Source: a virus
IMG/VR virus record: IMGVR_UViG_3300021087_000089
Location: 1-21,384 of that record
Direction: 5' to 3' (one strand)
DNA length: 21,384 bases
The notes beneath the pieces were generated by a model that was not told the origin of the DNA, did not search any database, and saw nothing but the letters and a program-made list of their open reading frames with translations. The position numbers were made by a program, and so were the translations under genes. Position 1 is the first letter of the stretch; every line of letters starts with the position of its first letter. Positions 1 through 21,384 of this stretch are shown one piece after another.

Positions 1-1
1 C

Positions 2-712
2 ACTCGTAGAATGAACTATGATGTGTTTCAGCCTTACGCAGAAGCTACGTCAATGGCAATGGCTCGTAAGATGGATCAAACAATTGTTACTGCCGCTTTT
101 GGTTCAGCATATGAATCAGATGGTGGTGCAATGGACGGTGCAACCGAGATAGTCTGGAATTCAACTAACTTCCCCAAACAACACATTGCTAAAGCGTTTC
201 AGTTTGGTAGTGGCTCTTATGATGCCAATATGATGGGTGTCCAAAATAGCGGTACTAATGCTTTTTCGCTTTCAATTGATAAGTTGTTACATGCTCGTAG
301 AATTTTATCTGAAAATGAAGCAGATCAATATGATGAAGGTGGTAACCCACTTTATTTTATTGTATGTTCTGCTGGACAGATAGAAGCATTACTGCATTCA
401 CAACAAATCCAAAGCGCAGATTATAACAATCTGAGAGCATTGGTTGAAGGGCAAACGAATTTCTTTGCTGGTTTTCAGTTTATTAGGTATGAGAATATGC
501 CTAAAGTAACTGTAGCTGGCGATGTAATTGAATCAGTTCTTGCATTTCATCCGCAAGGATTGGCTTTCTGTTCATGGGAAGAACCAATTACAGAAATAGA
601 AAGACGTTCGGACAAATCTTTTGTTCCATATGCATATTTTGAGATGGATATTGGTGCAACTAGGATTTGGGAAGAGATGGTACTGCAGATCGAATGTTTT
701 CAACCTGCATAA
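2..712 (+). CDS. Major capsid protein, C-terminal part (partial, runs in from the left)
   Basis: The frame is open from the first complete codon of the window, so the ATG at 11 is probably internal and the true N-terminus lies upstream. The visible 236 residues read as the distal part of a major capsid protein: a mixed alpha/beta body, then a conserved-looking end with an ERRSDKSFVPYAYFEMD stretch, a GATR motif and a C-terminal LQIECFQPA. This kind of ending occurs in capsid proteins of several marine and other podoviruses. It is not the T7 gp10 ending. Position supports the call: a small head protein, a terminator and then the tail tubular genes follow directly, as in T7-like genomes. The product would form the icosahedral shell. 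The family assignment is from memory of sequence style, so the exact capsid family is uncertain; the structural role is fairly safe from synteny. Confidence 0.7.
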   Translation, partial: TRRMNYDVFQPYAEATSMAMARKMDQTIVTAAFGSAYESDGGAMDGATEIVWNSTNFPKQHIAKAFQFGSGSYDANMMGVQNSGTNAFSLSIDKLLHARRILSENEADQYDEGGNPLYFIVCSAGQIEALLHSQQIQSADYNNLRALVEGQTNFFAGFQFIRYENMPKVTVAGDVIESVLAFHPQGLAFCSWEEPITEIERRSDKSFVPYAYFEMDIGATRIWEEMVLQIECFQPA

Positions 713-743
713 CCTACTTAACACATAATCTGAAAGGACAAAT

Positions 744-1205
744 ATGGCAAATCAAAATGCTGCAAATCACAAGAAACGACATGTATCTGTTCCTGCAAGG
801 CTGACTGACGTCGCCGATCAGGGTGGACGGATGCGTGTTTTGTATGATAAATTCTCGTTTGCAGACTTAGTAGGGACAAATTTAGTCCATACTACTTCTG
901 ATACGATTTCCTTTGGTAAACTGCCTCCCGGAGCAAAAGTATGGGATGCATCTTTACACCAATCTGCCACGTTAGCGGCAACTAGTAAGTTGTCTCTAGG
1001 GATTACTGGTGATGCAACTGCATTTTTAGGTGCAGATGCTTCTAGTGCGGTTGGTACTCGACATATGAGAGAAGGAGTGTCTAATGTAACACTTGCACCT
1101 GTTACAATTACTACAGAAACGACAGTAATTGCGACAATAAGTATTGCAACAGCCACAACTACTACGGCATTTGTAGAAGTTCGTATTTATTATACTGTTG
1201 ATTAA
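744..1205 (+). CDS. Small head protein, possible capsid decoration or head-stabilising protein
   Basis: A 153-residue protein starting at ATG 744 with a good ribosome site (AAAGGA at 733-738). The first 15 residues are polar and basic (NHKKRH). The rest is rich in Thr, Ala, Ser and Val, with short alternating hydrophobic strands and a run of Thr near residues 120-140, which suggests a beta-rich fold with no membrane segment. It sits 31 bases after the capsid gene and before the late terminator, the place where head decoration or auxiliary head proteins are often found. I do not recognise a named family, so the decoration role is inferred from position, size and composition. It carries the only GCWGC site I found in the window (759-763, in an Ala-Ala pair near its N-terminus). 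Confidence 0.5.
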   Translation: MANQNAANHKKRHVSVPARLTDVADQGGRMRVLYDKFSFADLVGTNLVHTTSDTISFGKLPPGAKVWDASLHQSATLAATSKLSLGITGDATAFLGADASSAVGTRHMREGVSNVTLAPVTITTETTVIATISIATATTTTAFVEVRIYYTVD

Positions 1206-1213
1206 TATCAATC

Positions 1214-1242
1214 GGGGGTTGGGAAACTAGCCCCCATTTCTT
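1214..1242 (+). terminator. Rho-independent terminator between head and tail genes
   Basis: Five G (1214-1218) pair with five C (1231-1235). The stem can extend inward by T-G, T-A and G-T pairs to about eight pairs, with a loop near 1222-1227, and a T-rich tail (ATTTCTTC) follows. It fills most of the 47-base gap between the small head gene and the gp11-like gene. T7 has its single major late terminator, T-phi, at the equivalent place after gene 10, where it keeps head-protein transcripts above tail transcripts. The stem and tail are read directly. The U-run is imperfect, so termination is probably partial, which suits the same role here. Confidence 0.7.
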
Positions 1243-1252
1243 CGAAATAACT

Positions 1253-1885
1253 ATGGATAAAACTGGTATAGCTAACCTTGCCTTAGGTTCTCTAGGGGAA
1301 GCAAGGATTCAAAGTTTAACTGACAATAATTCTAGGGCTAGAGCATGTAATGCACGACTTAATGATGTTATTACAACAGTATTAAGAATGCATACATGGA
1401 ATAGTGCATTAGAAAGAGCTACCTTAACGAATGTTGGAGAGCCTGTATTTGGGTGGAACTATATATTCCAATTACCTGTTGGATGTATAAAAGTTGTTGA
1501 AGTAGATCCTGTATCAAGATACCAAGTTGAAAAAAAGAATATATTATCTAATGAAAAGACTCTTAATGTATTATATGTAGGTAATCCAACTGATATAAAT
1601 AATTTAGATTCTTTGCTTGCAGAAGCTATTGCTATGAAGTTAGCACTAGAAATTTGTGAAACACTAACAAGTAAACAAGGATTAAAACAAGAAATGATGC
1701 AAAGATATGTCATTTCTTTACAAGAAGCTAGAGCCGCTAATTCCCACGATAAAACACCAGAACATCGGGAACGATCTTCTTTTCTTGATGCAAAGAAAGG
1801 TAGACACTCTGTACCGCATAGAACCTTTAATACCCCATCACAAGGTTACGAAGCGAATCAATATGATTATAGTATTGGATCATAA
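1253..1885 (+). CDS. Tail tubular protein A (T7 gp11-like head-tail adaptor)
   Basis: A 210-residue protein, close to T7 gp11 (196 residues). The N-terminus is typical of this family: IANLALGSLGEARI, then an NNSRARACNARL helix and an LRMHTWNSALERATL stretch. In the gp11 family this region begins with a leucine-rich helix followed by a Trp-containing 'hW..A..R..L' segment. The protein forms a ring (gatekeeper) between portal and nozzle. A helical central part (1620-1730) and a polar C-terminal tail rich in His, Arg and Ser follow. It comes right after the terminator, and the gp12-like gene follows 15 bases later. No strong ribosome site is seen, but the next-gene context and length fix the start reasonably well. 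Confidence 0.85.
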   Translation: MDKTGIANLALGSLGEARIQSLTDNNSRARACNARLNDVITTVLRMHTWNSALERATLTNVGEPVFGWNYIFQLPVGCIKVVEVDPVSRYQVEKKNILSNEKTLNVLYVGNPTDINNLDSLLAEAIAMKLALEICETLTSKQGLKQEMMQRYVISLQEARAANSHDKTPEHRERSSFLDAKKGRHSVPHRTFNTPSQGYEANQYDYSIGS

Positions 1886-1900
1886 TACTGGTTATCATTT

Positions 1901-4498
1901 ATGAAATATGAATTTGTTCAACCTAGATTTTCTGAAGGTGTATTAGCAAAAAGCCTTCAGGGGCGTTCTAGTGAAGAGTTTTACAAATATGGTCTAAAGG
2001 GAGCTAAGAACATGATTCCTGTTCTCTCCGGGCCTGTGGTGAAGCGTCCGGGTACAAATTATATAGGTGATTTAAAAGATCCTTCCTCAATCTTCATTCC
2101 ATTCTTTAAAGACAAAGATAATACATACATCCTAGAAGTAGGACAAACACATCTTACTTTAACTACTGGAGGTTATTTAAGAGTCTGGTCGCAGGATCAA
2201 CTATTAGTAGATAAACAAGTTCCTCCTCAAACATATGAAATACTAACTCCAACTTGGACTCAAGCGGAATTACCTTTACTAAAGTTTACCCAAAGTGGGG
2301 ATTATTTATTTGTATGTTGTCCAACTAAACCGCCACAAATAATAAAGCGAGTTATTGATGAAACGGCAACTGGAAGTGGCGTAGCAAAAGATAGTAGTAT
2401 CTGGTCTACATATGAAGTTGTATTTAGTGATGGGCCATATAATGAAATTAATGTCTACTCTGAATCAGATGCTACACAAAGATATGCGTTATATAAAGCT
2501 GAACCTTCAAACACAGCTCCAATAGCTGGTGTAGAATTTAATACTGTAACTAATCATGTTGTACTTGCGAATCATGGTCTTCAAGTTGGTATGAAAGTCA
2601 GATTAGATGATGATGGTCAAACAACTCCTTCTGGTACTACAAATAGTTCAGGAGGTTGGGGTAATTTAACAAGAGATAATACAAGTCCTACTACGAGTGC
2701 GGCTCAAAAACATGTAGATGCGGATTTTTACGTTATTTCAACGACATCGACATCTTTTCAAGTTTCTGATACTGATGGGGGTTCTGCTGTAGAATTTGAA
2801 TTATGGACATCTACTACTACTGCTGATGCGAAAGTAAATGTACATAGATACGTTGATGAAGCGGCAACCACTATTGATCTAACTGTATATAAAAATAGTG
2901 TTGCAAATAATGATTTATTTGATACAACTCCAACCCAAGAAGATGCTGGTAGGTTAATAAGGATAAATCCATTAGCTAGGCCATTAAATAGAATAGGGGG
3001 GATAAGATGGTGTTGGGGTATAATTAATTCTGTACATGCATCTAATCATACGATTAATGTGACCTTAAAAACGGAAATGTGTAATATTCGTGGTAAAGAT
3101 ACCGCGACTGGAGTTTTTGGCCCCCCACATCCAACAACTAATAAAGAAGCTGGCACAACAGATTTTAGAGTAGGAGCATTTAGTATTGGTGAGGGATATC
3201 CAACAGTATCTCAGATATATCAACAGAGAATGGTATTTGCCGCAACAAAGTTGCAACCTTCTACTGTATGGCTATCAGAGACAAATAACTTCTATTCATT
3301 TGCACCTAGTCAACTTCCAGCACAAGATTCTCCATCTTCTATTATAATGGGAGAGGCAATTGAAGTAATTACGGCATCAAGCGCATTAACATTTACATTA
3401 GATTCTGACACTTTAGACCAAATAAAATGGATTGCAGAATCAAAGAAGATGACTATGGGTACGTCTGCTGGTGTATACATGCTTTATGGTTCAGAAACTA
3501 ATTTAGTTGTAACACCATTTAGATTTACTATTAATAGAGAATCCTCTTTTTCTGCTACAGATACACCCCCTGTTGTTGTTTCCAATGCTCTAATGTATGC
3601 ACAAATTGGAGGTAAAGATGTACAACAGTTATTATTTGAAGGTGCAGAAGGTCAATGGTTTAATAGTAAAATATCAATTAAAGGTTATGATATAATTAAA
3701 TCATCTGAAATAAAAAAGATGGTATGGCAGGAAAGACCTAATAATGTTATCTGGTTGATGATGAATGATGGCAGGTTATTGTCTTTAAGTTATGATAGAC
3801 AGACTGCATTTCAAGCATGGTCGGAACATGTCATATCTGGAACTGAAGCTAAAGTTACTGATATTGAAATGATAGCAACAAGTTCACATGATCAAGTATG
3901 GATGAAAGTTGAAAGGAAAATAGGTGGTGTATTAAAATATCACATGGAAACATTAGCAAGATTCCCTACGGAAGGAGCATTAACACGCAACGAATTAGTA
4001 TTCTTAGATTCCGCAATAACTACTACACAGAGTGGAGGTGTAGTTAGTGGGTTAGATCATTTAGAAGGGGAATCTGTATCAATATATTATGATGGTATGC
4101 AACATAATAATAAAACAGTATCATCAGGAGCAATTACTTTAGATAATACTGCTGGATCAGATGTTGTAGTAGGACTAGCTTATAATGGAGAATTAGAAAC
4201 ATTAGAACCTACTGCACCAGAAAATCAATATTCTTATTCTAAACAAGTTAAGAATATATCTCTTCTGATTGAAGAATCTTTAGGTATTAAAGTAGAATAT
4301 GGAGATGAAAATGAAGAAATCTTATTTAGAACTTCTGGAGATTTAATGGGTCAACAGATTCCTTTATTTTCCGGTAAACGTAAACTCTCGCTATCAGGTT
4401 TGGCATGGGAAGATTTCGATATAAAAATTGTTTCTAATGGCCCATTTCCAATGCAGATTAACTCCATTGTCTTAGAGACAGAGACAGGAGGTAGTTAA
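1901..4498 (+). CDS. Tail tubular protein B (T7 gp12-like nozzle)
   Basis: An 865-residue protein, slightly longer than T7 gp12 (794). The N-terminus has the family signature: a short hydrophobic opening with QPRFSEGV, a GRSSEEFYKYGLKGAKNMIPVLSGPVVKRPGT pattern spread over residues 20-50 (the 'G...A.N.....G...RPG' motif), and then FIPF and a YILEVG strand. The C-terminal half keeps the usual QRMVFAATKLQPSTVW-type motif (around 3225-3270) and an 'AESKKMTMGTSAG' loop (around 3435-3470). The protein forms the hexameric nozzle at the tail tip and carries the fibres. Residues about 200-320 look like an inserted beta domain rich in Thr, Ser and Asp, which may account for the extra length. The stop codon overlaps the next start (TAATG). 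Confidence 0.88.
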   Translation: MKYEFVQPRFSEGVLAKSLQGRSSEEFYKYGLKGAKNMIPVLSGPVVKRPGTNYIGDLKDPSSIFIPFFKDKDNTYILEVGQTHLTLTTGGYLRVWSQDQLLVDKQVPPQTYEILTPTWTQAELPLLKFTQSGDYLFVCCPTKPPQIIKRVIDETATGSGVAKDSSIWSTYEVVFSDGPYNEINVYSESDATQRYALYKAEPSNTAPIAGVEFNTVTNHVVLANHGLQVGMKVRLDDDGQTTPSGTTNSSGGWGNLTRDNTSPTTSAAQKHVDADFYVISTTSTSFQVSDTDGGSAVEFELWTSTTTADAKVNVHRYVDEAATTIDLTVYKNSVANNDLFDTTPTQEDAGRLIRINPLARPLNRIGGIRWCWGIINSVHASNHTINVTLKTEMCNIRGKDTATGVFGPPHPTTNKEAGTTDFRVGAFSIGEGYPTVSQIYQQRMVFAATKLQPSTVWLSETNNFYSFAPSQLPAQDSPSSIIMGEAIEVITASSALTFTLDSDTLDQIKWIAESKKMTMGTSAGVYMLYGSETNLVVTPFRFTINRESSFSATDTPPVVVSNALMYAQIGGKDVQQLLFEGAEGQWFNSKISIKGYDIIKSSEIKKMVWQERPNNVIWLMMNDGRLLSLSYDRQTAFQAWSEHVISGTEAKVTDIEMIATSSHDQVWMKVERKIGGVLKYHMETLARFPTEGALTRNELVFLDSAITTTQSGGVVSGLDHLEGESVSIYYDGMQHNNKTVSSGAITLDNTAGSDVVVGLAYNGELETLEPTAPENQYSYSKQVKNISLLIEESLGIKVEYGDENEEILFRTSGDLMGQQIPLFSGKRKLSLSGLAWEDFDIKIVSNGPFPMQINSIVLETETGGS

Positions 4499-4986
4499 TG
4501 AACTCCGTAGCTAGAAGAATAGATACTACTTATTTAAACAATGCAGTTGAGTCATATCCTTCGGTTCTAACAAAACAAGAATATAGAGACTATGTTACTA
4601 ATATACAAGAAGAAATTATTAGTCGTGAAGATAGTGTAGAGGGAGAAGAAGCTAATGCTGTTAATCCTGTTAAGCATACATATGCAGATGGATTGTATAT
4701 CCGGGAAATATTTATGCCTAGAGGTGAAATAGTTATTAGCAAGATACATAAAATAGCTCATCCATTTTTCTTAATTAAAGGTAAAATCTCAGTATTATCA
4801 GAGGATGGCGAGAAATTACTACAAGCTCCATATTATACTGTTACGCCAGCCGGTACTAAGAGAATGTTATATACTCATACTAATGCTATTGTGGTAACTG
4901 TACACAGGACGTTTGAAACAGATTTAAATAAAATTGAAGATGAAATTATTGCAAAATCATTTGATGAATTAGAGGTAAAGATATGA
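4498..4986 (+). CDS. Cupin-like small protein in the T7 gp13 position
   Basis: A 162-residue protein starting at ATG 4498, overlapping the nozzle stop, with an excellent ribosome site (AGGAGGT at 4486-4492). Residues about 60-140 have the alternating strand pattern of a single cupin (double-stranded beta-helix) domain: IFMPRGEIVISKIHKIAHPFFLIKG..., an ISVLSEDGE turn, then VTPAGTKRMLYTHTNAIVVTVHRT. Histidines in the first motif (IHKIAHP) and near the end (YTHTN, VHRT) fall roughly where cupin metal ligands lie, but the usual set is incomplete, so catalysis is doubtful. Its place between nozzle and gp14-like genes is that of T7 gp13, a small virion assembly protein. It could be structural, a tail-assembly factor or a metabolite binder; the sequence does not settle which. 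Confidence 0.6.
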   Translation: MNSVARRIDTTYLNNAVESYPSVLTKQEYRDYVTNIQEEIISREDSVEGEEANAVNPVKHTYADGLYIREIFMPRGEIVISKIHKIAHPFFLIKGKISVLSEDGEKLLQAPYYTVTPAGTKRMLYTHTNAIVVTVHRTFETDLNKIEDEIIAKSFDELEVKI

Positions 4987-7868: not shown

Positions 7869-9262
7869 GGAAATTTGAATCAGCGGCAGATGTACAGGCA
7901 CATTGGAATTATATTGATAAATATGCAAATGATGATGGTCGTACGAGTTTTTGGATGCAACAGCAAATGTATCGAAGTGATGATAAAAGATTATCTGCAA
8001 TAGCATCATGGAGAGATTTGTCACCAGAATTGCAAGGTTCTAATAAATCCGTTTTAAATAATAAAATATTTGATATATTATTTGATTATTCTGCACCATT
8101 ACAATGGGGTGATAAGCATGATGAAAACGAAAGAAATGCTGTTTTTGATAATTTAAGAGAAGGTGGCTTTTCTTCACAATTTGAATCAGGGCCTAGAAAG
8201 AATTCTTTCGGTCATTTAATCGAAGCACTAGCTAACCATCCTCATTTTCATGATTTAGGATATCAAGGTGTTGCGGATCTATTAAATGAACCATATGTTA
8301 CTTATGATGGTGGAGCAGATATTAATATGGTATTTAAAAAAAGTGACTTAAAAGCTAGAAATATGACAGTAGATGATATGTATGAAAATGCTAACTATGC
8401 AATGATTAGAGCAATTAAAGAAAATAAGCATCTTACATTTGAAATTCTAGCCGAGCATGAAAATTTACAAAAAGAGATGGGCGGCGAACCTCATCATCAA
8501 CTTACTAAATTAGCTGAACTTAAGAAAAAATTATTAGAAAATGACGAAGATGCTTCCATATGGACAGCAACAAGACCATCACAAGATGGTAAAGGAATGG
8601 AAGTTGTTTTAATGACTGGTGATATGCATGACCGAGATAAAAGAACCGCAGTTGCAAGATGGATGTACAAAGATAAGGCTAAAGATGGTAGAAATGTTTT
8701 AAGTATACTTAAATATGAAGGTGATGAAAAATTTAAAGTCTTGTCTGCCTATCAAAGAGGCAACTTCATGGATATTGATAATGATGAAGATATAAAAACC
8801 AATGTCAAAAGGTGGATAGATGAAGGGGCTAGTGCAGTTGTAGATAAAATCCCGGGAGGTTTAGAAGAAGTTGCTGTACATTCATGGTGGCCTTGGAAGA
8901 TTGGCAAATTTGAATGGTATCAAGTTGTTAAACCATTTTGGGATAAGAATAAACATTTATCTAAAGAAAAATTTGCTGAAGAATGGGAAAGAGTAAGATT
9001 ACAAGAAACATATGCTTTTGAACAAAAGTATTTTGATTTGCATTTCAATGGTTTAATTGATTTATTTACTCCTGATGTAGTACCCTTTAGACATGGTGCT
9101 GGTTCATATAGTAAACAAGGTAGTTTAGGTGGTAGAAGCAGATCAAGAGGTAAACCAAGAGGGTTACTTTTTAAAGCAAAGCCAACAGTAGTAGGAGGAG
9201 AATATAGTCGGGAAAGACAGGGGATTTTAAGTCCTGCAGAACAAATTCTTAGAGATCAGTAA
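7865..9262 (+). CDS. Virion-associated protein of unknown family between gp15- and gp16-like genes
   Basis: A 465-residue soluble-looking protein rich in charged residues, Trp and His, with no clear membrane segment and no cysteine seen. The start ATG overlaps the gp15-like stop and has a strong ribosome site (AAGGAG about 10 bases upstream). I looked for a lytic transglycosylase core (an ES pair followed by a GLMQ-type motif), because T7 gp16 carries such a domain at its N-terminus, and did not find one. The C-terminal 40 residues (about 9120-9260) are basic and Gly/Ser/Arg-rich. It ends by overlapping the next gene (TAATG). Position suggests a DNA-ejection or internal core component, perhaps the N-terminal third of a gp16-equivalent that is a single chain in other phages. 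That is inference; the family is not recognised. Confidence 0.5.
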   Translation: MRKFESAADVQAHWNYIDKYANDDGRTSFWMQQQMYRSDDKRLSAIASWRDLSPELQGSNKSVLNNKIFDILFDYSAPLQWGDKHDENERNAVFDNLREGGFSSQFESGPRKNSFGHLIEALANHPHFHDLGYQGVADLLNEPYVTYDGGADINMVFKKSDLKARNMTVDDMYENANYAMIRAIKENKHLTFEILAEHENLQKEMGGEPHHQLTKLAELKKKLLENDEDASIWTATRPSQDGKGMEVVLMTGDMHDRDKRTAVARWMYKDKAKDGRNVLSILKYEGDEKFKVLSAYQRGNFMDIDNDEDIKTNVKRWIDEGASAVVDKIPGGLEEVAVHSWWPWKIGKFEWYQVVKPFWDKNKHLSKEKFAEEWERVRLQETYAFEQKYFDLHFNGLIDLFTPDVVPFRHGAGSYSKQGSLGGRSRSRGKPRGLLFKAKPTVVGGEYSRERQGILSPAEQILRDQ

Positions 9263-10368
9263 TGAGACGACAAGAAACATTCCTAATGGATAGAAATGAA
9301 GGTTATGCAAGTAGGCAGTTTATGGAGCAAGCTGTACGTACGTATAAACCCGGTGTATTTGACCAGATGGCTCAAACTTGGGAAATGCATATGTCAAATG
9401 ATACCATATCTTATGCCAGTGATGCTATTAATCGTGCGTATGGTAGTGATGAAACTATACCAATGGAGATGTGGAATAAAGAAAATTCTGTTTATTTTCG
9501 TAAAGGGATTGATTGGCATGAAAATTTAACAAATACCGATGCAAGAATTTTATCAGAAAGATATGATCGTGATGTTAAATTTGAATTAAATATGGGGAAT
9601 ACAGACCCATTTGCTATACATAATATCGGTGCGGCACTTGGTGCGGCGGCATTTGATCCATTATCGTATATTCCATTTGTAGGCCCTGTGTCCAAAATAG
9701 CCGCAGGGGGCAGGACAGCGTATCAATTAGCAAGAATAGGTAAACATACTGCTGATATAGGTAAGATTTCAATGGTGGGCGTTATGGGAGGCGCATCGGC
9801 TACTGTAGCTAGTAAAAGCATTGCACAAGTAAGTAGACTATCGAAAGTCATAAATCCTGTTAAAGCTACACTTAAAGGTGTTTTTGCGCCATTTAAGCCT
9901 GTTGGCAAATATTCAATGGAAGGAATCTTTGCAGAATCGGCATATCAAACTATAAAACATATGGGAAAGAGTGATAACGAAGAAGATATAGATTATATGG
10001 GCGGTGTATTTGATGTAATGATTGCAGGATTATTTGGGGGAGTATTAGGTACTTTACCTATGGCAATGAATTTTAGACGTAATTTTAAGAAAGAACAGTT
10101 AGCAAGAGCATTATCGGATTCTTTAGATACTTGGGGTGATCAAGGTTTTGTAGCAATAGATGGTTCTGGTACTGATGCTAGATTTAGAACAACTGATGCA
10201 GAAGCAAAACAAAAAATGAAGACTGAGACAGAAGACTTGGAAAATATATCTATTGAAGAAATAAAGAAACAAGCCCATCCAATATTAAGTTACTTAGAAG
10301 GAAAATTTGGAGATGCTAAAAGTGGCGCAAAGACTTTTATAGGAGCATATAGGAGGTGTGCGTCATGA
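9262..10368 (+). CDS. Internal virion protein with membrane segments (gp16-like, part A)
   Basis: A 368-residue protein. After a polar N-terminal third it has hydrophobic Gly/Ala-rich segments: residues about 120-142 (IGAALGAAAFDPLSYIPFVG), 169-185 (ISMVGVMGGASATVA) and 247-270 (GGVFDVMIAGLFGGVLGTLP). The 'A.FDPLSYIPFVG' motif is typical of the central part of very large phage internal core or ejection proteins. These segments would insert in the inner membrane during genome entry. The last 80 residues are charged and helical. The gene ends at an ATGA overlap with the 844-residue gene, and the two are probably one functional unit split into two chains. The assignment to the gp16 role is from gene order and membrane segments, not from a transglycosylase domain. 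Confidence 0.65.
   Translation: MRRQETFLMDRNEGYASRQFMEQAVRTYKPGVFDQMAQTWEMHMSNDTISYASDAINRAYGSDETIPMEMWNKENSVYFRKGIDWHENLTNTDARILSERYDRDVKFELNMGNTDPFAIHNIGAALGAAAFDPLSYIPFVGPVSKIAAGGRTAYQLARIGKHTADIGKISMVGVMGGASATVASKSIAQVSRLSKVINPVKATLKGVFAPFKPVGKYSMEGIFAESAYQTIKHMGKSDNEEDIDYMGGVFDVMIAGLFGGVLGTLPMAMNFRRNFKKEQLARALSDSLDTWGDQGFVAIDGSGTDARFRTTDAEAKQKMKTETEDLENISIEEIKKQAHPILSYLEGKFGDAKSGAKTFIGAYRRCAS
10351..10356 (+). promoter_or_regulatory. Perfect Shine-Dalgarno (AGGAGG) fixing the start of the 844-residue gene
   Basis: AGGAGG lies eight bases before ATG 10365. This favours ATG 10365 over an in-frame GTG at 10356, which overlaps the ribosome site itself. In the upstream reading frame the same bases encode two AGG arginine codons, three codons before the stop. 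Confidence 0.8.
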
Positions 10369-12899
10369 ATAGTTGTGTTGATATTCTAAAAGAAATGAAA
10401 GCTACTCCAGAAGAAATAAAATGGATGCAACAACAAATGAAATCAGGAACAGGTGATGACGACCTTGCTAATAGACTTATAGAAGAAATAAGACTTAATA
10501 GATTCCGTAAAGCTAATAATGATCTGTCAGAAAAAAATACAAGGCAGTTTTTAGACAAATTAAAGAATGTTTCTACCAAAATTAAAAAACCATATAATGC
10601 TATATTTAAATTCTTAGTAGGAGATACATCTGGAATTACATCCAGATCGTTAGCGCGAGCGCAAGCGAGAGCAGGGTTCTTTTCAGCAAAACTTAGAATG
10701 CCTAATAGAGATATTAAAGCTAAGTTAAATGATAAAGGTTTTGTTCATGATTTAGTTACAGAAATGGATATGTTTGATGGCAAGCCAAAAACTAAAAATA
10801 AATTAGCTTTTGAATTAGCAGAATCAATTACAGAATATCAAAAAAGACAAGTAGGTGAACTTAATAGTTTTGGTGGTGGAGTATTATGGAGAGATGACTA
10901 TATTACTAAACAATGGCATGATGCATTTAGGATGCTTAAAGTAGATAAAGAAGTATGGGTAAATGATGTTATGAAAGCCCTAGATTATGATGGTACTAAG
11001 GACAGAATTAGGCAAACAATTTTAGGTAAAAGATTAACATGGGATGAGAAAAAATTTGATATGAAGAAGTATTTGCGTTCTGCATATACTGCAATGACAG
11101 CTAAATCTACAAATAAAGGTTTGTTATTGGATACTCTACATTTAAAAAGAACATTGAAATTTAAAGATGCAGATTCTTTTATTAATTATAATAAATCATA
11201 TGGACATGAAAATATAGCACATGCAATATTTGAAAATATGACAATGGTAGATAATCACATTTCATTTGGAGAAGCATTTGGATTCGGCTTCAGAAAGAAA
11301 ATTGTTCCTGACCCGGTAAATTTAAGTAAACATCAAGATGCCCTTGCTGAAGCTAAATTAACAGGAGATAATAATCTAATACTAGAAGCTGAAAATGCAT
11401 TAGAAAATATAAAATGGAAAGAGGTAAATCCTACGGATGAATTACAAAGAGCTATGCATGAGTTACATCAAACAAAACGAATTACTGGCAGTCAATATAG
11501 GAGGTTAAGAGGGGCATTATCTCAAGTAACTGGTGATTCTTATCAGCTTGGTAATCCAACTTTAGCAAAGATGGTAACAGGATTCCAGTTTTGGGAATAT
11601 ATAACAAAACTAGGGAAAGCTACATTATCATCAATTAATGATTTATGGACAGGTGCAGTAATTCTTCATTATCAAGGTGTAAAACCGGGTAGAGCATATC
11701 TAGGTCTAATAAATCATATACTAAAAAAAGCAACACGTAACATATCCACTGGCGAAAGAGATGTACTCTTAAGGCAATTAAATGTTGGAGTTGAAGGAAT
11801 ATTTGAAACATATTCAAGAAATTACATAAATAACCCTGCAATGGGTACAATGAATAAGATGACTGATGCAATGTTCGATTATAATTTATTGAACTGGTGG
11901 ACTAATTCTGCAAGAGAAGGAGCCGCTAAGATGATGTCGATGCATTTCGCAGATAATTTAGCGCATTCATTTGATAAACTTCCTACTAAATTGAAAAGTC
12001 TATTAGAGGCATACGATCTAAATGCAAAAGATTGGAATATATTAAGAAAAGTAGGAGCATTTGATGAAACAAAATTTAATAAAAGTGGGAGTAAAAAGAA
12101 TAAATTTTTTACTTCCGATCATTTCTTTGATACTGTTGCAGAAAAGCAAGATGACGGAACATTTAAAGTAAAATCTGAATACGCAAAAGCAGGATTATCG
12201 GGAGATGATGTACGTAGAATAGAGCAATCTATTAATAGATATTATATAATGGAAAGTAGACTTGCAGTGCCAGAAGCAGGTGCGGCAGATCGTGCATGGA
12301 TGTTTGGCGAACATGCAAGAGGATCGTTGCCAGAATCAACATTACGGCTTTTTTTCCAGTTTCGGACTCATCAAGTTAAAATGATTAGAGGTCTAATGCC
12401 TAGAATGTATGAAATGGGAACACCATCATTAGCACATATAATGCCAGCAATAGGACTAGGATATGTATCTGCTAGTTTAAAGAATATGGTTGCAGGAAAA
12501 GAACCAATGGCATATGATGATCCACAAACCCTAAGAAGATCACTAGAACAAAGTGGGTTTTTGGGGTTTTTAGCAGATTTTGTAGGGGGTCAATTTGGGA
12601 ATTATAAACATGACATGGATGAGGCTATAGCAGGAAGTGCTTATAAAACAATTACTTCGTGGACAGATTTAGGACATGAGTTAGTTAAAGGGAACAAAGA
12701 TGCAGTTGATGTATATAATCACTTGCGGCATCAAGTTCCTTTTGCTAATCTGTTTTATACAGAGGCGGCTGTTAATTACTTTATACATTATAATATAATG
12801 GAAACTTTTAGGCCCGGATATAAAAAACGTTTAGAGGCTCGTGCAAGAGGGTCTAATGCCGATTATTTGATTAAACCGTCATCAATTTGGGGGGGTTAA
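10365..12899 (+). CDS. Large internal virion protein (gp16-like, part B)
   Basis: An 844-residue protein starting at ATG 10365, inside the upstream stop (ATGA), behind a perfect AGGAGG. It is mostly helical and charged. Features include a basic stretch rich in Arg and Ala (around 10645-10690, RSLARAQARAGF), a LYS/GLU-rich middle, a Trp-rich region near 11890 (LLNWWTNSAREGAAKMM), and a C-terminal third with an LFFQFRTHQVKMIRGLMPRMYE motif and the moderately hydrophobic stretch AHIMPAIGLGYVSASLKNMVAG (joined here only by position, near 12430-12500). This architecture matches the C-terminal part of large phage ejection proteins. Together with the two upstream genes the summed length (about 1,680 residues) exceeds T7 gp16 (1,318). 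No enzymatic motif is visible. Confidence 0.7.
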   Translation: MNSCVDILKEMKATPEEIKWMQQQMKSGTGDDDLANRLIEEIRLNRFRKANNDLSEKNTRQFLDKLKNVSTKIKKPYNAIFKFLVGDTSGITSRSLARAQARAGFFSAKLRMPNRDIKAKLNDKGFVHDLVTEMDMFDGKPKTKNKLAFELAESITEYQKRQVGELNSFGGGVLWRDDYITKQWHDAFRMLKVDKEVWVNDVMKALDYDGTKDRIRQTILGKRLTWDEKKFDMKKYLRSAYTAMTAKSTNKGLLLDTLHLKRTLKFKDADSFINYNKSYGHENIAHAIFENMTMVDNHISFGEAFGFGFRKKIVPDPVNLSKHQDALAEAKLTGDNNLILEAENALENIKWKEVNPTDELQRAMHELHQTKRITGSQYRRLRGALSQVTGDSYQLGNPTLAKMVTGFQFWEYITKLGKATLSSINDLWTGAVILHYQGVKPGRAYLGLINHILKKATRNISTGERDVLLRQLNVGVEGIFETYSRNYINNPAMGTMNKMTDAMFDYNLLNWWTNSAREGAAKMMSMHFADNLAHSFDKLPTKLKSLLEAYDLNAKDWNILRKVGAFDETKFNKSGSKKNKFFTSDHFFDTVAEKQDDGTFKVKSEYAKAGLSGDDVRRIEQSINRYYIMESRLAVPEAGAADRAWMFGEHARGSLPESTLRLFFQFRTHQVKMIRGLMPRMYEMGTPSLAHIMPAIGLGYVSASLKNMVAGKEPMAYDDPQTLRRSLEQSGFLGFLADFVGGQFGNYKHDMDEAIAGSAYKTITSWTDLGHELVKGNKDAVDVYNHLRHQVPFANLFYTEAAVNYFIHYNIMETFRPGYKKRLEARARGSNADYLIKPSSIWGG

Positions 12900-12900: not shown

Positions 12901-15849
12901 GTGATTTCAACAGATATAAATAGAGCAGAATTTGATGGAGGTAATAACCAGTCAGTTTTTGTTTTTCGACAAACGTCGCCTCAAGTAGATATTCCAGTAA
13001 CGGACGCATCACATATTAAAGTATATGTAGGTGGAGTGGTTAAAACTATAACTACTCATTACACTGTTTCAATTCTAAATAAACTCGCAACAATTACATT
13101 TACAGTTGGTAATGTACCGGGAACCGGCACAGGTAATGTTATTTTTATAAGAGAAGTCCCTTTTAAACAAGATTCTGATCTTGCTAATAACGATCAATTA
13201 GATGCGGAATCATTAGAAAACCAATTAGATTTAATTGTTAACCAAAGTCAACAGTTAAATGATAAATCTCAAAGAAGTTTAAAAGTAGCAGATACTTTAT
13301 TTTCTGGTGATGCAGAAGAAGTTGATCTGACTTTAACTAAAACTGCAACTGAAAGAGCAGAAAAGAGCCTAAAATTCGATAGTTCTGGTGCATTAACTGT
13401 CACAAGTATTAATGTAGATGATGTTGAAACTTTTTCTAATGCATCTGCGGCTAGTGCAGTACTGTCTGAAGCCTCAAAAGTAGCGGCGGCGGCTAGTGAA
13501 ACTGCGGCAAATGAATCTGCAAATGCAGTATCAACATATATGGATTCTTTTGATGCTAACTATCTAGGAGCAATGGCAACTACAGCATCTCAAGGTAATA
13601 ATCCTACTACTGAAGGTACTTGGACTAAGAATTCATCAACAATTACTGTACAAAGTGCAACAGATATAAAAGTTGGTCAAGTAGTTACTGGTACAGGAAT
13701 GACTGCTGGTTCTAATGTTCTTTCAGTAGTAAGCACCACAGTAGTTGTTTCAAATAATATGGATGCGGCAGGAACAGAAGATTTAACTTTTACTGGCTAT
13801 GGAGTATATGGAACTTATGATGCTACTGATGTTGGCCCAACATTAAATAACGATGGTACAGCTTTAGCAAATGGAGCATTGTATTACAATACTACTAATG
13901 ATCATATAAGAATTTATGATTCTTCTACTACTCCTAAATGGAGACAAATAACCACTGATCTTGCTAGTCAAGGAAACATAGATAAATTAGCTGTTGGTGT
14001 AGATGGAACTTCAAATACAAGTGGTTCACCCGGCACTAATAATACATTATTAATTAATACAGTTGCAACCGATTCAACGGCTTTAAATACAGTAGCAACC
14101 GATATAGCAAAAATAAATACATTAGACGGATTATCTACAGAAATTGGTCGATTAGGTAGTGCAGATTATGCTGATGGTGCAGATGCATTTTTAAAGAAAT
14201 TAGGACATGATGATTTTTCTAATGCAACAACTGGTTATATTAAAAAAGTAGCTGATATAGATTCAGAAGTTGCTATATGTGGAGCAGATTTAACATATGA
14301 AGAAGACTTAGGTAGTATAGCTGTAGCACCAACAACTGGTACAGGTAATAATATAACTGTTGTAGGTAATAATACAACCAACATTAATCATGTTGCAGGA
14401 CAAATAAACCCTACTAATAACATTTCCGCTTTAGGCCCACAGGCTACGAATATTGGTCATGTCGGTGGTCAAATAAGCCCCACTAATAATTTAGCAACTG
14501 TAGCAGGGCAAATATCCCCCACTAATAATGTTTCTACTCTAGCTGGATTAGATACTGCACTTACGAATTTAGGGCCAAAATCAACTGAACTTACGAATTT
14601 AGGAACTACTGCTTGTGTAGCTGACATGGCATTGTTGGGTACTACCGATTGTGTTGCAGATATGGCGTTACTTGGTACTTCAGCTATGGCTCATGCTTCA
14701 ACAGGTCATTTAAAGGTCTTATCAGATATTCATGCCAATGTAACAACAGTAGCAGGAATATCAGGTAATGTTACTACTGTTGCAGGAGATACAACAGAAA
14801 TTAATACTGTAGCTGGCGATCATACGGAGATTTTAAATTTAGATGCTTTAGATGCAGAGATTACATTACTTGGCACTAATGATCATGCTCATGCTACTAC
14901 CGGGAACTTAAAATTGGTAGGCGATAATATTGATGATGTTGTAATTGTAGCAGGGGAATTATTATATAAGGAGGATTTAGGTGGTGTAGCAGACGCAGTA
15001 ACCACAAGTACCGGGAATGCTATTAGTGATGTTGCTGATAATGAAGTTAATATTGATCTTGTTGCTGGGCAAATAAGTCCTACTAATCATATTGGTGCAT
15101 TAGGCCCGGTAGCTTCAAATATTACTACTGTAGCGACAGCCCCAATTCCAGCTAATATGGCAACAGTAGCTCCTATTGCTGGTAATATAACTACGGTTGC
15201 AGGGATAAGTGGGAATGTAACTAGCGTTGCAGGAATATCAGGTGATGTTACGGCAGTAGCCGGGGATGCTACTGATATAGGAACTGTAGCGGCTAGTATT
15301 GCTGATGTTAATAGATATGCAAACGAATACAAGATACAAGCTACTGCTCCCGGTTCTCCAAGTGAAGGGGATTTATGGTATGACGAAACCAATGATATAT
15401 TAAAACATTATAATGGTGGTACAAGTGCATGGGAATACAATAGTGTTTCTGTTGCGGCTTCTCCAATGCATTTTACAGAGGGAATTACTGAAGCTCTAGG
15501 AACTGGTTCTGCATCAGGTACTACTATAACTGTAGATTTAGATACTGGTAACTTCTTTGAAGCAGATTTAAATAGTGCATCAGGAAATATAGTTACATTC
15601 ACTATTAATAATGTTAATGCTACAAGTGGTTATGTATCTAATTTCATCGTAAAAGTAAAACAACATGCATCTTCAGCTAAAGCTATTACATGGGCAACAG
15701 TTGTATCGAATGGGACTAATGTAGATTGGGCAGGAGGTGCAGGCCCGGATGTTACAACAACAGCAAATGCTATTGATATATTTTCTTTTACAACCTATGA
15801 CAATGGCACTACTTGGTATGGTGGAATTGTTGGACAGGAATATGGCTAA
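12901..15849 (+). CDS. Tail fibre protein with T7 gp17-type N-terminal attachment domain
   Basis: A 982-residue protein with a GTG start at 12901, one base after the upstream stop. Residues 1-150 match the T7 tail-fibre N-terminal domain (Phage_T7_tail): FRQTSPQVDIPVTDASHIKVYV, a beta strand set, then REVPFKQDSDLANNDQLDAESLENQLDL and a Gln-rich helix. An Ala/Ser-rich segment follows (about 185-215), then a beta region (about 225-360), and from about residue 495 to 805 tandem repeats. The C-terminal 150 residues have TPGSPSEG-DLWYDE-type and WYGGIVGQEYG endings that are common in marine phage fibres. The N-terminus binds the nozzle; the distal part contacts the host surface. The C-terminal coding end overlaps a longer open frame of the oxygenase gene, but that extension is not needed. 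Confidence 0.88.
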   Translation: MISTDINRAEFDGGNNQSVFVFRQTSPQVDIPVTDASHIKVYVGGVVKTITTHYTVSILNKLATITFTVGNVPGTGTGNVIFIREVPFKQDSDLANNDQLDAESLENQLDLIVNQSQQLNDKSQRSLKVADTLFSGDAEEVDLTLTKTATERAEKSLKFDSSGALTVTSINVDDVETFSNASAASAVLSEASKVAAAASETAANESANAVSTYMDSFDANYLGAMATTASQGNNPTTEGTWTKNSSTITVQSATDIKVGQVVTGTGMTAGSNVLSVVSTTVVVSNNMDAAGTEDLTFTGYGVYGTYDATDVGPTLNNDGTALANGALYYNTTNDHIRIYDSSTTPKWRQITTDLASQGNIDKLAVGVDGTSNTSGSPGTNNTLLINTVATDSTALNTVATDIAKINTLDGLSTEIGRLGSADYADGADAFLKKLGHDDFSNATTGYIKKVADIDSEVAICGADLTYEEDLGSIAVAPTTGTGNNITVVGNNTTNINHVAGQINPTNNISALGPQATNIGHVGGQISPTNNLATVAGQISPTNNVSTLAGLDTALTNLGPKSTELTNLGTTACVADMALLGTTDCVADMALLGTSAMAHASTGHLKVLSDIHANVTTVAGISGNVTTVAGDTTEINTVAGDHTEILNLDALDAEITLLGTNDHAHATTGNLKLVGDNIDDVVIVAGELLYKEDLGGVADAVTTSTGNAISDVADNEVNIDLVAGQISPTNHIGALGPVASNITTVATAPIPANMATVAPIAGNITTVAGISGNVTSVAGISGDVTAVAGDATDIGTVAASIADVNRYANEYKIQATAPGSPSEGDLWYDETNDILKHYNGGTSAWEYNSVSVAASPMHFTEGITEALGTGSASGTTITVDLDTGNFFEADLNSASGNIVTFTINNVNATSGYVSNFIVKVKQHASSAKAITWATVVSNGTNVDWAGGAGPDVTTTANAIDIFSFTTYDNGTTWYGGIVGQEYG
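14398..15312 (+). repeat. Degenerate tandem repeats in the tail-fibre shaft
   Basis: Within the fibre gene, GQI(N/S)PTNN-type units occur at 14398-14421, 14467-14490, 14506-14529 and 15067-15090 (the last ends in NH). They are interleaved with 9-10-residue units of the form NVTTVAGISG, TTEINTVAGD and SNITTVA. A short near-perfect duplication, CVADMALLGTT, appears at about 14617-14680. The protein repeats are clear while the DNA differs at wobble bases, so they are old or under protein-level selection. Such units probably form a trimeric beta-helical shaft. Confidence 0.75.
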
Positions 15850-15860
15850 AAGGTGATTGT

Positions 15861-16460
15861 GTGGATATAAGTTATGACCAATTTATAGGGACATTTGATG
15901 GAACGGTCAATAAGGTTTTCTGTAATAAAGTTACAGTCTTTTTTGACAAAATGGTGGAAGAGGGGTATGTTGCCCACTCCACCCAAGTACATTCACAGTT
16001 CGGTCATAAGCAGTCAAAAGTAAGATCAGAAAGAGATGATAGATATTTACACGTTCCTAGTCAATTAAGTCAAGATACCTTGCCTGATACTTGGTGTAAC
16101 GAATATGTTGTTGCAATAAGTGAAGTTGTTAATCGATATGTTGAAAGATACTCCATTACAGACAAGGTATCTTCATGGTCTTTTAAGTTACATAATGTTG
16201 ATGTAGGTCAAGGGTATCATGTATTCCATAAGGAATACTCTTTCCCTGATGCTACAGAAAGAGTATTAGCATATATGACTTATATTAGTGTTCCAGAAAA
16301 GGGTGGGGAAACAGAGTTTTTACACCAAAATGTAAGATGTGAGCCTGTAATGGGTAGGACACTTATGTGGCCTTCATATTTTACTCATCTACATCGTGGC
16401 AATCCAGTATTAAAGGGAAGGAAACTTTATATTACAGGATGGTTTAATTATACAGGATAA
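15861..16460 (+). CDS. Phage-type 2OG-Fe(II) oxygenase (prolyl-4-hydroxylase-like)
   Basis: A 199-residue protein. I place the start at GTG 15861, seven bases after an AAAGG ribosome site just past the fibre stop, rather than at an upstream ATG inside the fibre gene. The catalytic core is clear: GYHVFHKE (His123-x-Glu125, the first metal ligands, Glu replacing the usual Asp), a VLAYMTYISVPEKGGETEF strand-turn (residues about 135-153), then FTHLHRGNP (distal His176, with His178 and Arg179 next) and Lys188 just before YITGW, in place of the basic residue that binds the 2-oxoglutarate carboxylate. These enzymes hydroxylate proteins or small molecules using Fe(II), O2 and 2-oxoglutarate. The substrate is unknown. 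It shares a TAATG junction with the halogenase gene, so the two are likely co-translated. Similar phage enzymes are frequent near structural genes in marine phages. Confidence 0.88.
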   Translation: MDISYDQFIGTFDGTVNKVFCNKVTVFFDKMVEEGYVAHSTQVHSQFGHKQSKVRSERDDRYLHVPSQLSQDTLPDTWCNEYVVAISEVVNRYVERYSITDKVSSWSFKLHNVDVGQGYHVFHKEYSFPDATERVLAYMTYISVPEKGGETEFLHQNVRCEPVMGRTLMWPSYFTHLHRGNPVLKGRKLYITGWFNYTG

Positions 16461-17605
16461 TGAAAATTGTTGTTGTTGGTGGTGGTAATGCAGGGATATT
16501 GACAGCCTTACATTACACTCATTACACTAAAGACTTACATAACATAGAAGTAGAATTAGTATATGATCCCAATATATCCCCTGTCCCTGTAGGTCAGGCT
16601 ACATTAATTGATGCACCTCATTTACTTTGGCATTCATTAGGATATAACTGGTACTCAAATAAAATAAAAGCAGTCCCAAAGTTTGGGATACTGTATGAAA
16701 ATTGGGGAAAAAAGAATAAAAAGTTTTTCCATCCGTTTAATTATACTGACGTTGGACTGCACATAAACACAGCAGAATTTCAGAAAGCAGTATTAACTTC
16801 TGGATATTTAACTGTCAAAGAGAAAAACATCAAGGATATTGAAACTATTGATGCAAACGTAATATTTGATTGTAGAGGTAAAGGGAAAGACAACAAAGAT
16901 TATGAGGAGATATTAAATCCAATAAATTCTTGTTTAGTTGCAACAAGCAATGATCATGATCCTAACCAATATTGGACTCGTCATGTTGCTACTCCTGATG
17001 GTTGGACATTTATAACACCTAATGTAGACAGTACCTCATTTGGGTATTTATATAATAAAGATATTACAAGTAAAACTAAGGCAACAAAGAATTTTGCAAA
17101 GTATTTTGGTGATTATTTTAAACATGGTATTATAACCAATGAAGTAAATTCTCATGCTTATATAGCAAAAGATTTTGCAAGGGAGAAAGATAATAGAACA
17201 ATAATATTAAATGGCAACAGATTCTCCTTTATAGAGCCAATGGAAGCAACTTCAATTGCAATATATCAGACTCTTGCAAGATATTCATGGGATTGGATAA
17301 TAGATGGGACAGCTACTCACAAACAAGTTAATGATGCTATCCGAAAAGTTGTATTCAAATGTGCAACATTTATTTTATACCATTATATAAAAGGTTCAGT
17401 ATATAACACTAAATTTTGGAAACATGCTAAAGAAATGGCAGAGTTTGGTATGGATGAATCCAATACTGAGTTTTACAATATTATGAATACAGTCAGGTAT
17501 AATGACATAGTAGATTTAAAAAATAGTGATAAATTTGAGACTCATCCCTATGGGATGTGGCCTTATCATTCATTCAAAACTTGGGATGAGAACGTAATAT
17601 GCTAG
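16460..17605 (+). CDS. Flavin-dependent tryptophan-halogenase-like protein
   Basis: A 381-residue protein, shorter than bacterial tryptophan halogenases (about 500-540). The N-terminus is an FAD-binding Rossmann motif (KIVVVGGGNAG, residues 2-12). Lys74 in VPKFGILYENW matches the position of the catalytic lysine of PrnA/RebH, which lies just before a conserved N-W pair. FIEPMEATSI (residues 258-267) corresponds to the P-L-E-S/A-T region carrying the conserved glutamate (here Glu262). The halogenase hallmark W-x-W-x-I-P appears changed to GWTFITP (181-187), keeping only the first Trp and the Pro. Known viral members exist (VirX1 from a cyanophage is an active halogenase with broad substrates). 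Activity here would also need a flavin reductase, not seen nearby. It could instead be a related flavin monooxygenase. Confidence 0.82.
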   Translation: MKIVVVGGGNAGILTALHYTHYTKDLHNIEVELVYDPNISPVPVGQATLIDAPHLLWHSLGYNWYSNKIKAVPKFGILYENWGKKNKKFFHPFNYTDVGLHINTAEFQKAVLTSGYLTVKEKNIKDIETIDANVIFDCRGKGKDNKDYEEILNPINSCLVATSNDHDPNQYWTRHVATPDGWTFITPNVDSTSFGYLYNKDITSKTKATKNFAKYFGDYFKHGIITNEVNSHAYIAKDFAREKDNRTIILNGNRFSFIEPMEATSIAIYQTLARYSWDWIIDGTATHKQVNDAIRKVVFKCATFILYHYIKGSVYNTKFWKHAKEMAEFGMDESNTEFYNIMNTVRYNDIVDLKNSDKFETHPYGMWPYHSFKTWDENVIC

Positions 17606-19731: not shown

Positions 19732-19732
19732 C

Positions 19733-20452
19733 ATGGCTAAACAATTACAAATACGGCGTGGTACTACTGTGGAACACGCTTCTTTTACAGGATTAGATGG
19801 GGAACTTTCTGTCGACACCGATCTAGGCGAATTGCGTTTACACGATGGTTCTACTGCTAGTGGAAATTTAATAGGAGGTGGTGGATTAAACGTAGGGCAA
19901 CAGCTTTCTACAAAATGTATTCATAAGTATGAGAATGGTATTCAAGATCACGAAAACAAGCAATGGCAAGTAATTTCGGAAACTCAAACAATTAATCAAG
20001 TAAGTGGGAACACTTATACTATTGAATATACAGGATTTTATACCATAGAAAATGAAACAGGAACCCCCGCAGAATATATTGCTAATATATGGTTAGGTAA
20101 AAGTACAAGTTATGTTGGCTCTGCTAGTGTGTCTACACCAGCTATTTGGTTGACAGGGGCCGTTTTTGGAACAAGAGATGCAGACTCCGCAACTGGTTCT
20201 ACAGGTTTTTGGGCTGGAAGAGTAAATCTTATGGCATCATGGGTAGCAGGAAGTAGCGCAAACACATATATAGGTATATGGGCTTTACCGGGAAATGCCA
20301 CAGGAGGAGGAACAGCAGATGTGAAATTAGTTCGGCAAATGGCGACACCCGCAGGGAACGAATTTGGGGGCCCTTTTACTTATCAACAGTCTACTGAAGA
20401 GTACCGCATTACTGAATATAAGGGTAATTGTATTACAACAGATACACCATAA
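19733..20452 (+). CDS. Receptor-binding/fibre-type protein with Mtd-like N-terminal domain
   Basis: A 239-residue protein with a good ribosome site (AAAGGG about six bases before ATG 19733). Residues 4-45 fit the short N-terminal domain seen in major tropism determinant and many other phage fibre proteins: LQIRRGTT, then GLDGELSVDTDLGELRLHDG. The remaining 190 residues are predicted beta-rich with many Thr, Gly and aromatic residues (TYTIEYTGFYTIEN, ANIWLG, YIGIWALPG), compatible with a jelly-roll or C1q-like host-binding head. No C-type lectin or retroelement-associated variable repeat is seen, so this is not a diversity-generating target on present evidence. It likely caps a fibre or forms a second receptor-binding module. 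Confidence 0.75.
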   Translation: MAKQLQIRRGTTVEHASFTGLDGELSVDTDLGELRLHDGSTASGNLIGGGGLNVGQQLSTKCIHKYENGIQDHENKQWQVISETQTINQVSGNTYTIEYTGFYTIENETGTPAEYIANIWLGKSTSYVGSASVSTPAIWLTGAVFGTRDADSATGSTGFWAGRVNLMASWVAGSSANTYIGIWALPGNATGGGTADVKLVRQMATPAGNEFGGPFTYQQSTEEYRITEYKGNCITTDTP

Positions 20453-20462
20453 TTATTAATGA

Positions 20463-20774
20463 ATGAAGAGAGTAAACCATTCACTATTTGGTGGAGCAGG
20501 GAGTCCGCTTGAAAATAGGAAACTTCTCAACTTTTGGGCAAGATTCACAATTTCAATTGCCAACGCATTTACGTTCTTGGTTTTACTCTATTTATTGTTC
20601 TATTCGGATGTTAAGGAAACGAGCCGTGACCTCATTAATATCCTCATGGGAGCATACGTTGCAGTTCTTGCAAAGTCTACTGACTATTGGTTTCGTGAGA
20701 AGAAAGATCATGAACATGAAGAAGAGATGGAATCAAGTAAGGCAAAATATAAATTAAAAAAAGGTAAGAATTAG
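20463..20774 (+). CDS. Holin-like two-helix membrane protein
   Basis: A 103-residue protein with two predicted membrane helices (residues about 26-48, FTISIANAFTFLVLLYLLFY, and 57-72, LINILMGAYVAVLAK) and a strongly charged C-terminal tail from residue 73 (DYWFREKKDHEHEEEMESSK). This plan matches small phage holins that sit after the fibre genes (T7 gp17.5 position), which form lethal inner-membrane lesions to release endolysin. The start ATG 20463 has no ribosome site. A second ATG at 20459 in another frame opens MNEESKPFTIWWSRES and stops at 20512; this may be the true N-terminus joined by a frameshift. So the membrane part is firm but the first 15 residues are uncertain. Confidence 0.7.
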   Translation: MKRVNHSLFGGAGSPLENRKLLNFWARFTISIANAFTFLVLLYLLFYSDVKETSRDLINILMGAYVAVLAKSTDYWFREKKDHEHEEEMESSKAKYKLKKGKN

Positions 20775-20775
20775 G

Positions 20776-20955
20776 ATGACTAATTTATTAAAGAAATTTA
20801 AAGACTTTTTCAAACCGGATAAGGCTGATTTTGAGAGAGTTAAGCGATGGGAGGAAGAGATGAAAGATCCAGATAAACCAAAGAAAAGTTTAACTATTGA
20901 AGACTTTGAACGTGCTAAACGTAAGAAAAATAAAACTCTAAGCTCTAACTTCTAA
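20776..20955 (+). CDS. Small highly charged protein, unknown function
   Basis: A 59-residue protein starting at ATG 20776, one base after the holin-like stop. It is basic and helical (NLLKKFKDFFKP..., DFERVKRWEEEMKD..., IEDFERAKRKKNK), with no cysteine and no membrane segment. The two DFER-(V/A)-KR segments (near residues 18-24 and 43-49) are a short internal repeat. The N-terminal amphipathic helix could sit at a membrane surface. The function is not recognised. Its stop shares bases with the next start (TAATG), so it is coupled to the following gene. Confidence 0.6.
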   Translation: MTNLLKKFKDFFKPDKADFERVKRWEEEMKDPDKPKKSLTIEDFERAKRKKNKTLSSNF

Positions 20956-21086
20956 TGGCTAATGGAAATGGTAATAACGCCATGCAAGCAATGGCGGAGC
21001 ATACTCTTGTCAAAACCTTCACGCCACTTGTTGTTGCTGGATTGATGGGAATTGTTGGCTGGTTATTTGCGACAAATAGCTCGTGA
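20955..21086 (+). CDS. Small single-pass membrane protein, probably truncated by a frameshift
   Basis: A 43-residue protein starting at ATG 20955, overlapping the previous stop. A polar N-terminus (MANGNGNNAMQAMAEH) is followed by one hydrophobic segment (residues 24-39, PLVVAGLMGIVGWLFA) and a stop three residues later. This is a familiar plan for small phage membrane anchors that continue into a coiled coil. Here a coiled-coil-like reading frame continues in the +1 frame directly past the membrane segment (see the next feature), so the gene may be broken or need frameshifting. On its own it could act as a small holin or anchor. Confidence 0.55.
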   Translation: MANGNGNNAMQAMAEHTLVKTFTPLVVAGLMGIVGWLFATNSS

Positions 21087-21225
21087 TAACAAAATACACA
21101 TTAATCATCTTCACATGGCAGAAGAAAACTTTGAAGGACAAATGAAGGATGTAGAATCAACTCTCACGGATTTAAGGATTAGTGTAGGTAGGAGAGATCC
21201 ACGAGATAGATTTAAGAATCCTTAA
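21046..21225 (+). CDS. Coiled-coil-like frame, ATG at 21115, likely C-terminal part of the preceding membrane protein
   Basis: The frame is open from 21046 to the stop at 21223-21225. If translated alone it starts at ATG 21115 and gives 36 residues (MAEENFEGQMKDVESTLTDL then a basic end, RRDPRDRFKNP), but no ribosome site precedes that ATG. Read from about 21070 it gives RQIARDNKIHINHLH, which continues smoothly from the membrane segment of the 43-residue gene if one base is skipped near 21069. The joined product of about 88 residues would be a membrane anchor plus coiled coil. Which reading is real cannot be decided by eye. Confidence 0.45.
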   Translation, partial: WELLAGYLRQIARDNKIHINHLHMAEENFEGQMKDVESTLTDLRISVGRRDPRDRFKNP

Positions 21226-21229
21226 ACTT

Positions 21230-21301
21230 ATGACTAAAGAACAGCAGGATCATTTAGATCGGTTAAGGAAATTACACGAACAATATAGGAAAAGGAGATA
21301 G
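21230..21301 (+). CDS. Very small helical basic ORF (23 residues)
   Basis: ATG 21230 lies four bases after the previous stop, and the frame ends at TAG 21299-21301, one base before the next gene's start. The peptide MTKEQQDHLDRLRKLHEQYR plus a short basic tail would form an amphipathic helix. No ribosome site is visible, so it would rely on coupling. It may be a real micro-gene or only the leader in which the next ribosome site (AAGGAG at 21292-21297) is set. Confidence 0.35.
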   Translation: MTKEQQDHLDRLRKLHEQYRKRR

Positions 21302-21302
21302 T

Positions 21303-21384
21303 ATGCCAAAACGATATGGAAGTAGAGGAACTATTATAACAACTGATCGTAATACCCATACGTCGCAGACAGGATCAGGTTCTA
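21303..21384 (+). CDS. Partial gene running off the right end
   Basis: ATG 21303 has a strong ribosome site (AAGGAG, five-base spacing). Only 27 residues are visible, beginning MPKRYGSRGTIITTDRNTHT and ending in a Gly/Ser run. The visible part is polar and basic, with no recognisable motif. In T7 order terminase and lysis genes would follow a holin, but nothing here supports that assignment. Confidence 0.6.
   Translation, partial: MPKRYGSRGTIITTDRNTHTSQTGSGS

Follow-up and report, generated by a model that had tools for sequence, protein, structure and literature searches.

Avoidance of restriction sites is already well known, and the phage clade described here is a strong instance of it. 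In the survey of Rusinov et al. (2018; PMC6286503), Type II site avoidance was found to be widespread in prokaryotic viruses, about 7.1% of such sites having been eliminated; as in the present clade, orthodox Type II palindromes were nearly eliminated, the effect being strongest in non-temperate dsDNA phages. Sites were judged there against known host systems. Unlike the cases of that survey, the clade has lost nearly all copies of three or four 5-bp sites, jointly and throughout its members, namely GCWGC, CCWGG and GGWCC (W, A or T) and, in addition, CASTG (S, C or G). Also unusual are the completeness of the avoidance, the clean silent escape from the sites and the conflicting restriction barcodes of a sister clade. 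Parts of the pattern are found in isolated phages. T7 shares the avoidance of the EcoRII-class site CCWGG (2 versus 52 expected), but not that of GCWGC, GGWCC or CASTG; GGWCC is also low in Cobetia phage Carin1 (0/55, observed/expected) and Phormidium phage Pf-WMP4 (7/47), which, unlike the clade, leave GCWGC and CCWGG unavoided. The closest isolates by tail tubular B and portal are Pelagibacter phages (about 30-32% identity; by portal, the podoviruses HTVC010P and HTVC203P), the former being low in CASTG and the latter having CCWGG at 0/7, but, in contrast to the clade, both carry GCWGC at expectation (50/44 and 92/84, respectively). A marine methylome study describes CCWGG methylation in some viral genomes, the site set of the clade being absent there (PMC9516812).

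The window, i.e. the whole stretch of 21,384 nt that was analysed (IMG/VR record IMGVR_UViG_3300021087_000089; GC 36%), represents part of the genome of an uncultured podovirus, and its relatives indicate that these phages are probably marine. Its ORFs make up the late (structural) half of a podovirus genome, in the order major head protein, tail tubular proteins A and B, internal virion proteins and tail fibres, followed by a 2OG-Fe(II) oxygenase, a tryptophan-halogenase-like protein and small genes (table 1). The oxygenase ORF, which has a TTG start, lies 3′ of a tail fibre gene and adjoins the halogenase-like gene, while the Mtd N-terminal domain encoded further downstream is that found in the Bordetella phage tropism determinant. 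Among the best matches listed, the halogenase-like protein is 38-42% identical to cyanophage homologues; it was considered as a clue to the host and gave nothing firm, and a search for PF04820, perhaps an insensitive one, found no halogenase in 20 relatives.

Table 1. Features of the window, with coordinates, strand and supporting evidence.
Feature	Position	Strand	Support
Whole window, podovirus late half; nearly without GCWGC, CCWGG and GGWCC, low in CASTG	1..21384		counts, shuffles
Sole GCWGC (GCTGC), Ala-Ala codons near start of the 744-1205 ORF	759..763		
Major head protein, C-terminal part (phrog_3437)	11..712	+	E 6e-32
Tail tubular A-like protein (phrog_394)	1253..1885	+	E 2e-46
Tail tubular B-like protein (phrog_376); query for relatives	1901..4498	+	
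Short tail fibre protein-like (phrog_12032)	4498..4986	+	
Internal virion protein with endolysin domain, weak match (phrog_342)	9262..10368	+	E 1e-4
Internal virion structural protein (phrog_684)	10356..12899	+	E 2e-84
Tail fibre protein	12901..15849	+	
2OG-Fe(II) oxygenase	15813..16460	+	
Tryptophan-halogenase-like protein (phrog_2928)	16460..17605	+	
Tail protein, Mtd N-terminal domain	19733..20452	+	

The W-centred sites are nearly absent from the window (GCWGC 1, CCWGG 0, GGWCC 0), where the corresponding S-centred words are frequent (GCSGC 35, CCSGG 31, GGSCC 18). Expected numbers were obtained by permuting synonymous codons within classes of amino acid and next base, a shuffle that preserves the proteins, codon use and the dinucleotide at the codon junction (3-1), and that is conservative because the escape codons remain in the pool. 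It gave 26.1±2.6 GCWGC, 15.1±2.5 CCWGG and 13.6±2.7 GGWCC (z of -9.6, -6.1 and -5.1, respectively), and the observed counts were reached in none of 1000 shuffles; the many sites of the codon-shuffled controls are thus not matched by the real sequence. At codon level, the pairs that can contain a site end their first codon in C or G in 31/32 Ala-Ala, 18/18 Pro-Gly and 14/14 Gly-Pro cases, as compared with 61/516, 24/183 and 141/629 for Ala, Pro and Gly before other residues (Fisher P of 2e-25, 2e-14 and 1e-9). The sequence-only reading had given the three pair counts, estimated by eye, the single GCTGC and the absence of CCWGG and GGWCC, all of which proved exact, as well as the A/T wobble preference of these residues elsewhere; that similar non-palindromic words are common also holds, GCWGG, CCWGC, GGWGC and GCWCC being at or above the shuffle expectation. 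CASTG is low (6 versus 17.8 expected), and AGATCT, CAGCTG, AAGCTT and TGGCCA have no copy in the window.

With tail tubular B and the portal as queries, about 150 loci were obtained from viral contigs, from which, after merging of overlaps, a main-clade set of 86 contigs was assembled, with the window included and 723 kb of ORF. Across these 86 contigs, GCWGC is found at 72/907 (ratio 0.08), CCWGG at 39/690 (0.06), GGWCC at 149/546 (0.27) and CASTG at 156/682 (0.23). Normal counts in the rest of the genome would have spoken against avoidance; related genomes instead lack the three sites, including in the early genes of a 32-kb relative (IMGVR_UViG_3300045789_000075). This contig is among the largest relatives, together with IMGVR_UViG_3300037842_000302, 3300030450_002828, 3300030382_003005 and 3300032006_000020. 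Several 6-bp palindromes are nearly gone as well (AAGCTT 15/231, AGATCT 20/264, CAGCTG 12/163, GTGCAC 4/92), with others, among them TGATCA, ATGCAT and TAGCTA, at expectation.

Whether such a pattern reflects a bias in codon pairs, with C/G wobble bases favoured for ribosomal reasons and the loss of sites as a by-product, can hardly be told from the window alone, the informative sites of which mostly lie in codon phase 0. That explanation predicts depletion in one codon phase, and was rejected on finding it in all of them: ratios in phases 1 and 2 are 0.09 and 0.03 for GCWGC, 0.02 and 0.03 for CCWGG, and 0.12 and 0.13 for GGWCC, comparable to or stronger than in phase 0, and 48 kb of non-ORF DNA contains neither GCWGC nor CCWGG versus 75 GCWGG and 53 CCWGC. 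Therefore, avoidance targets the DNA, whatever the reading frame, rather than codon pairs, as the sequence-only reading had put it in stating that palindromes, not dipeptides or the wobble base, are affected. The codon preference itself is strong (C/G-ending codons make up 94% for Ala before GC, as against roughly 6-16% elsewhere, 94% for Pro before GG and 78% for Gly before CC), but it is missing from the sister phages, in which the S-ending fraction of Pro before GG is 0.00 versus 0.94 in the main clade, and a translational origin is accordingly extremely unlikely. A mutational loss, by cytosine methylation at the sites and subsequent deamination to T, is suggested by the fact that cytosine methylation classically occurs at CCWGG, GCWGC and GGWCC. 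It should, however, leave mostly C to T changes on either strand and spare the central W. At orthologous positions of site-keeping and site-avoiding contigs, which have common ancestry and are not independent events, the comparison with sister contigs L140 and L141 yielded GGWCC to GGSCC in 42/42, CCWGG to CCSGG in 54/60 and GCWGC to GCSGC in 48/73 cases, with no site kept and no A/T swap limited to the centre, whereas non-palindromic GCWGG was kept in 29/84 positions, every centre-only change being between A and T and none from W to S. As C to T products do not dominate at lost sites and S-centred sites are raised 1.6-3.2 fold, deamination was rejected in its turn and has next to no probability; the almost exclusive W to S change at the centre fits purifying selection instead.

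Two further explanations retain the palindromes as the target. One is a general avoidance of palindromes by phages, with nothing special to these sites, and indeed the main clade (0.62-0.80) and 11 control phages put through the same shuffle test (0.47-0.92) are all poor in 6-bp palindromes taken together, so that the three W-centred sites and CASTG are what distinguishes the clade. Against these controls the explanation was rejected as very unlikely: in all of them the ratio for GCWGC (about 0.7-1.1) is at most mildly below expectation, any strong avoidance concerns a single one of the three sites, and 4-bp palindromes and S-centred 5-mers show no general depletion. The other is a single agent, either one broad enzyme or a non-restriction defence reading W-centred palindromes as a class, an idea prompted by the common SSWSS form of the three sites and by the fact that the main and the sister clade differ in each of the three avoidances. 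It is improbable, if somewhat less so, in that CGWCG is near normal in the main clade (113/136) and the avoidances are lost singly in single lineages, which implies several separate enzymes. Bearing in mind that expected counts are small in contigs of about 5 kb, G013 (IMGVR_UViG_3300030450_002828) has lost avoidance of GGWCC alone, L099 and L026 have lost that of CCWGG and GGWCC and kept that of GCWGC, in L049 sites have returned mainly for GCWGC and GGWCC, and CASTG is normal in G011 (IMGVR_UViG_3300037842_000302), L138, L077 and L094. Such single-site turnover agrees with the gain and loss of separate restriction systems by the hosts, and not with a single class-wide cause.

The sites are far below the protein-preserving expectation, and their loss is site-specific and independent of frame. 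It is very probable that the lineage has long lived in hosts with at least three separate Type II systems equivalent in specificity to GCWGC, CCWGG and GGWCC; these hosts would probably also have had a CASTG-class system and several systems directed at 6-bp palindromes. Unmodified sites would be cut on entry of the phage, so that surviving genomes would have shed sites one by one, mainly by the silent W to S change at the site centre, which is the sole synonymous exit in Ala-Ala, Pro-Gly and Gly-Pro pairs. Exposure to Type II restriction at W-centred 5-base sites, already favoured in the sequence-only reading, remains the best explanation in the light of the shuffles, the relatives, the codon phases, the route of escape and the unbiased sister phages, although restriction enzymes as the agent, and a difference in repertoire between main- and sister-clade hosts, are inferred.

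The sister clade comprises 12 contigs (L140, L141, L158-L165, L169 and L173), with portals about 66-72% identical to those of the main clade. There, the three sites are near expectation (GCWGC 167/162, CCWGG 148/154, GGWCC 74/94), CCGG is absent (0/26) and CGWCG (4/20), GCSGC (7/21) and CGSCG (0/11) are low, CCGG, CGWCG and GCSGC being near or above expectation in the main clade. Avoidance of CASTG (24/110 in the sister clade), AAGCTT, GATATC, CGCG, TGGCCA and GTGCAC is common to both. The change from CCWGG to CCSGG by which the main clade escapes creates CCGG, the very word absent from the sister clade; likewise, escape from GCWGC makes GCSGC, and a genome fit for the site set of one host would therefore be cuttable in the other. 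Tentatively, and less probably than not, the two clades may carry mutually exclusive restriction barcodes, restriction locking the lineages to different hosts and helping to split them. On the portal tree, two changes are needed to account for GCWGC avoidance, three for CCWGG, six for GGWCC and seven for CASTG. Since distant outgroups show no GCWGC avoidance, a gain on the main-clade stem is suggested, on a tree with a poorly supported inner-clade root, and the three avoidances by which the main clade differs from its sister could have arisen in one event.

With regard to self-protection, PHROGs and Pfam scans of the window, itself a genome fragment, found no DNA methyltransferase among its ORFs, and neither C5 (PF00145) nor N6/N4 (PF01555) methyltransferases were found in larger relatives; the contigs are mostly fragments, and an anti-restriction gene may lie elsewhere. 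Tyrosine integrase (PF00589) was likewise found in none of 10 larger relatives, the contigs being fragmentary, and a scan of 20 contigs or pieces of contigs gave no tRNA gene. Two relatives both encode, among their early genes, a YqaJ/RecE-type exonuclease and RusA, but differ in that one has RecT and the other SSB and a replication-initiation-like protein. The expectation that the avoided sites would give a clue to the host stands as far as the clue itself is concerned, but no relative turned up in 84,980 bacterial and archaeal genomes scanned twice with alignments of tail tubular B and the portal, and the papers searched on the three sites, on CASTG together with GCWGC and on marine methylomes named no organism with the site set.

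From a more general point of view, the genomes of these phages can be read as a record of the restriction defences of their hosts: codon-controlled site counts over a clade of metagenomic phage fragments can recover a multi-enzyme restriction barcode without the host being known, and its gains and losses can be placed on a tree. The barcode offers a testable means of assigning uncultured phages to their hosts through methylomes, and restriction history may hold sister phage lineages apart.

Among the relatives, contig L136, with a divergent portal, has normal CASTG (14/12) with low CCWGG (2/12) and GCWGC (1/4). Finally, the non-palindromic words CCCGT and CCCGC are low in both the main and the sister clade, with CCCGY at 4 versus 26.7 expected in the window. 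In the main clade, the shuffle gives 18/260 for ACGGG/CCCGT and 31/272 for CCCGC/GCGGG, expectations that the pooling of escape codons (CCC in front of GG) inflates; in direct codon tables, the share of CCC is still 0.00-0.01 in front of GC or GT versus 0.04-0.09 elsewhere, so that a real but smaller avoidance is likely, which suggests Type IIS or similar systems.
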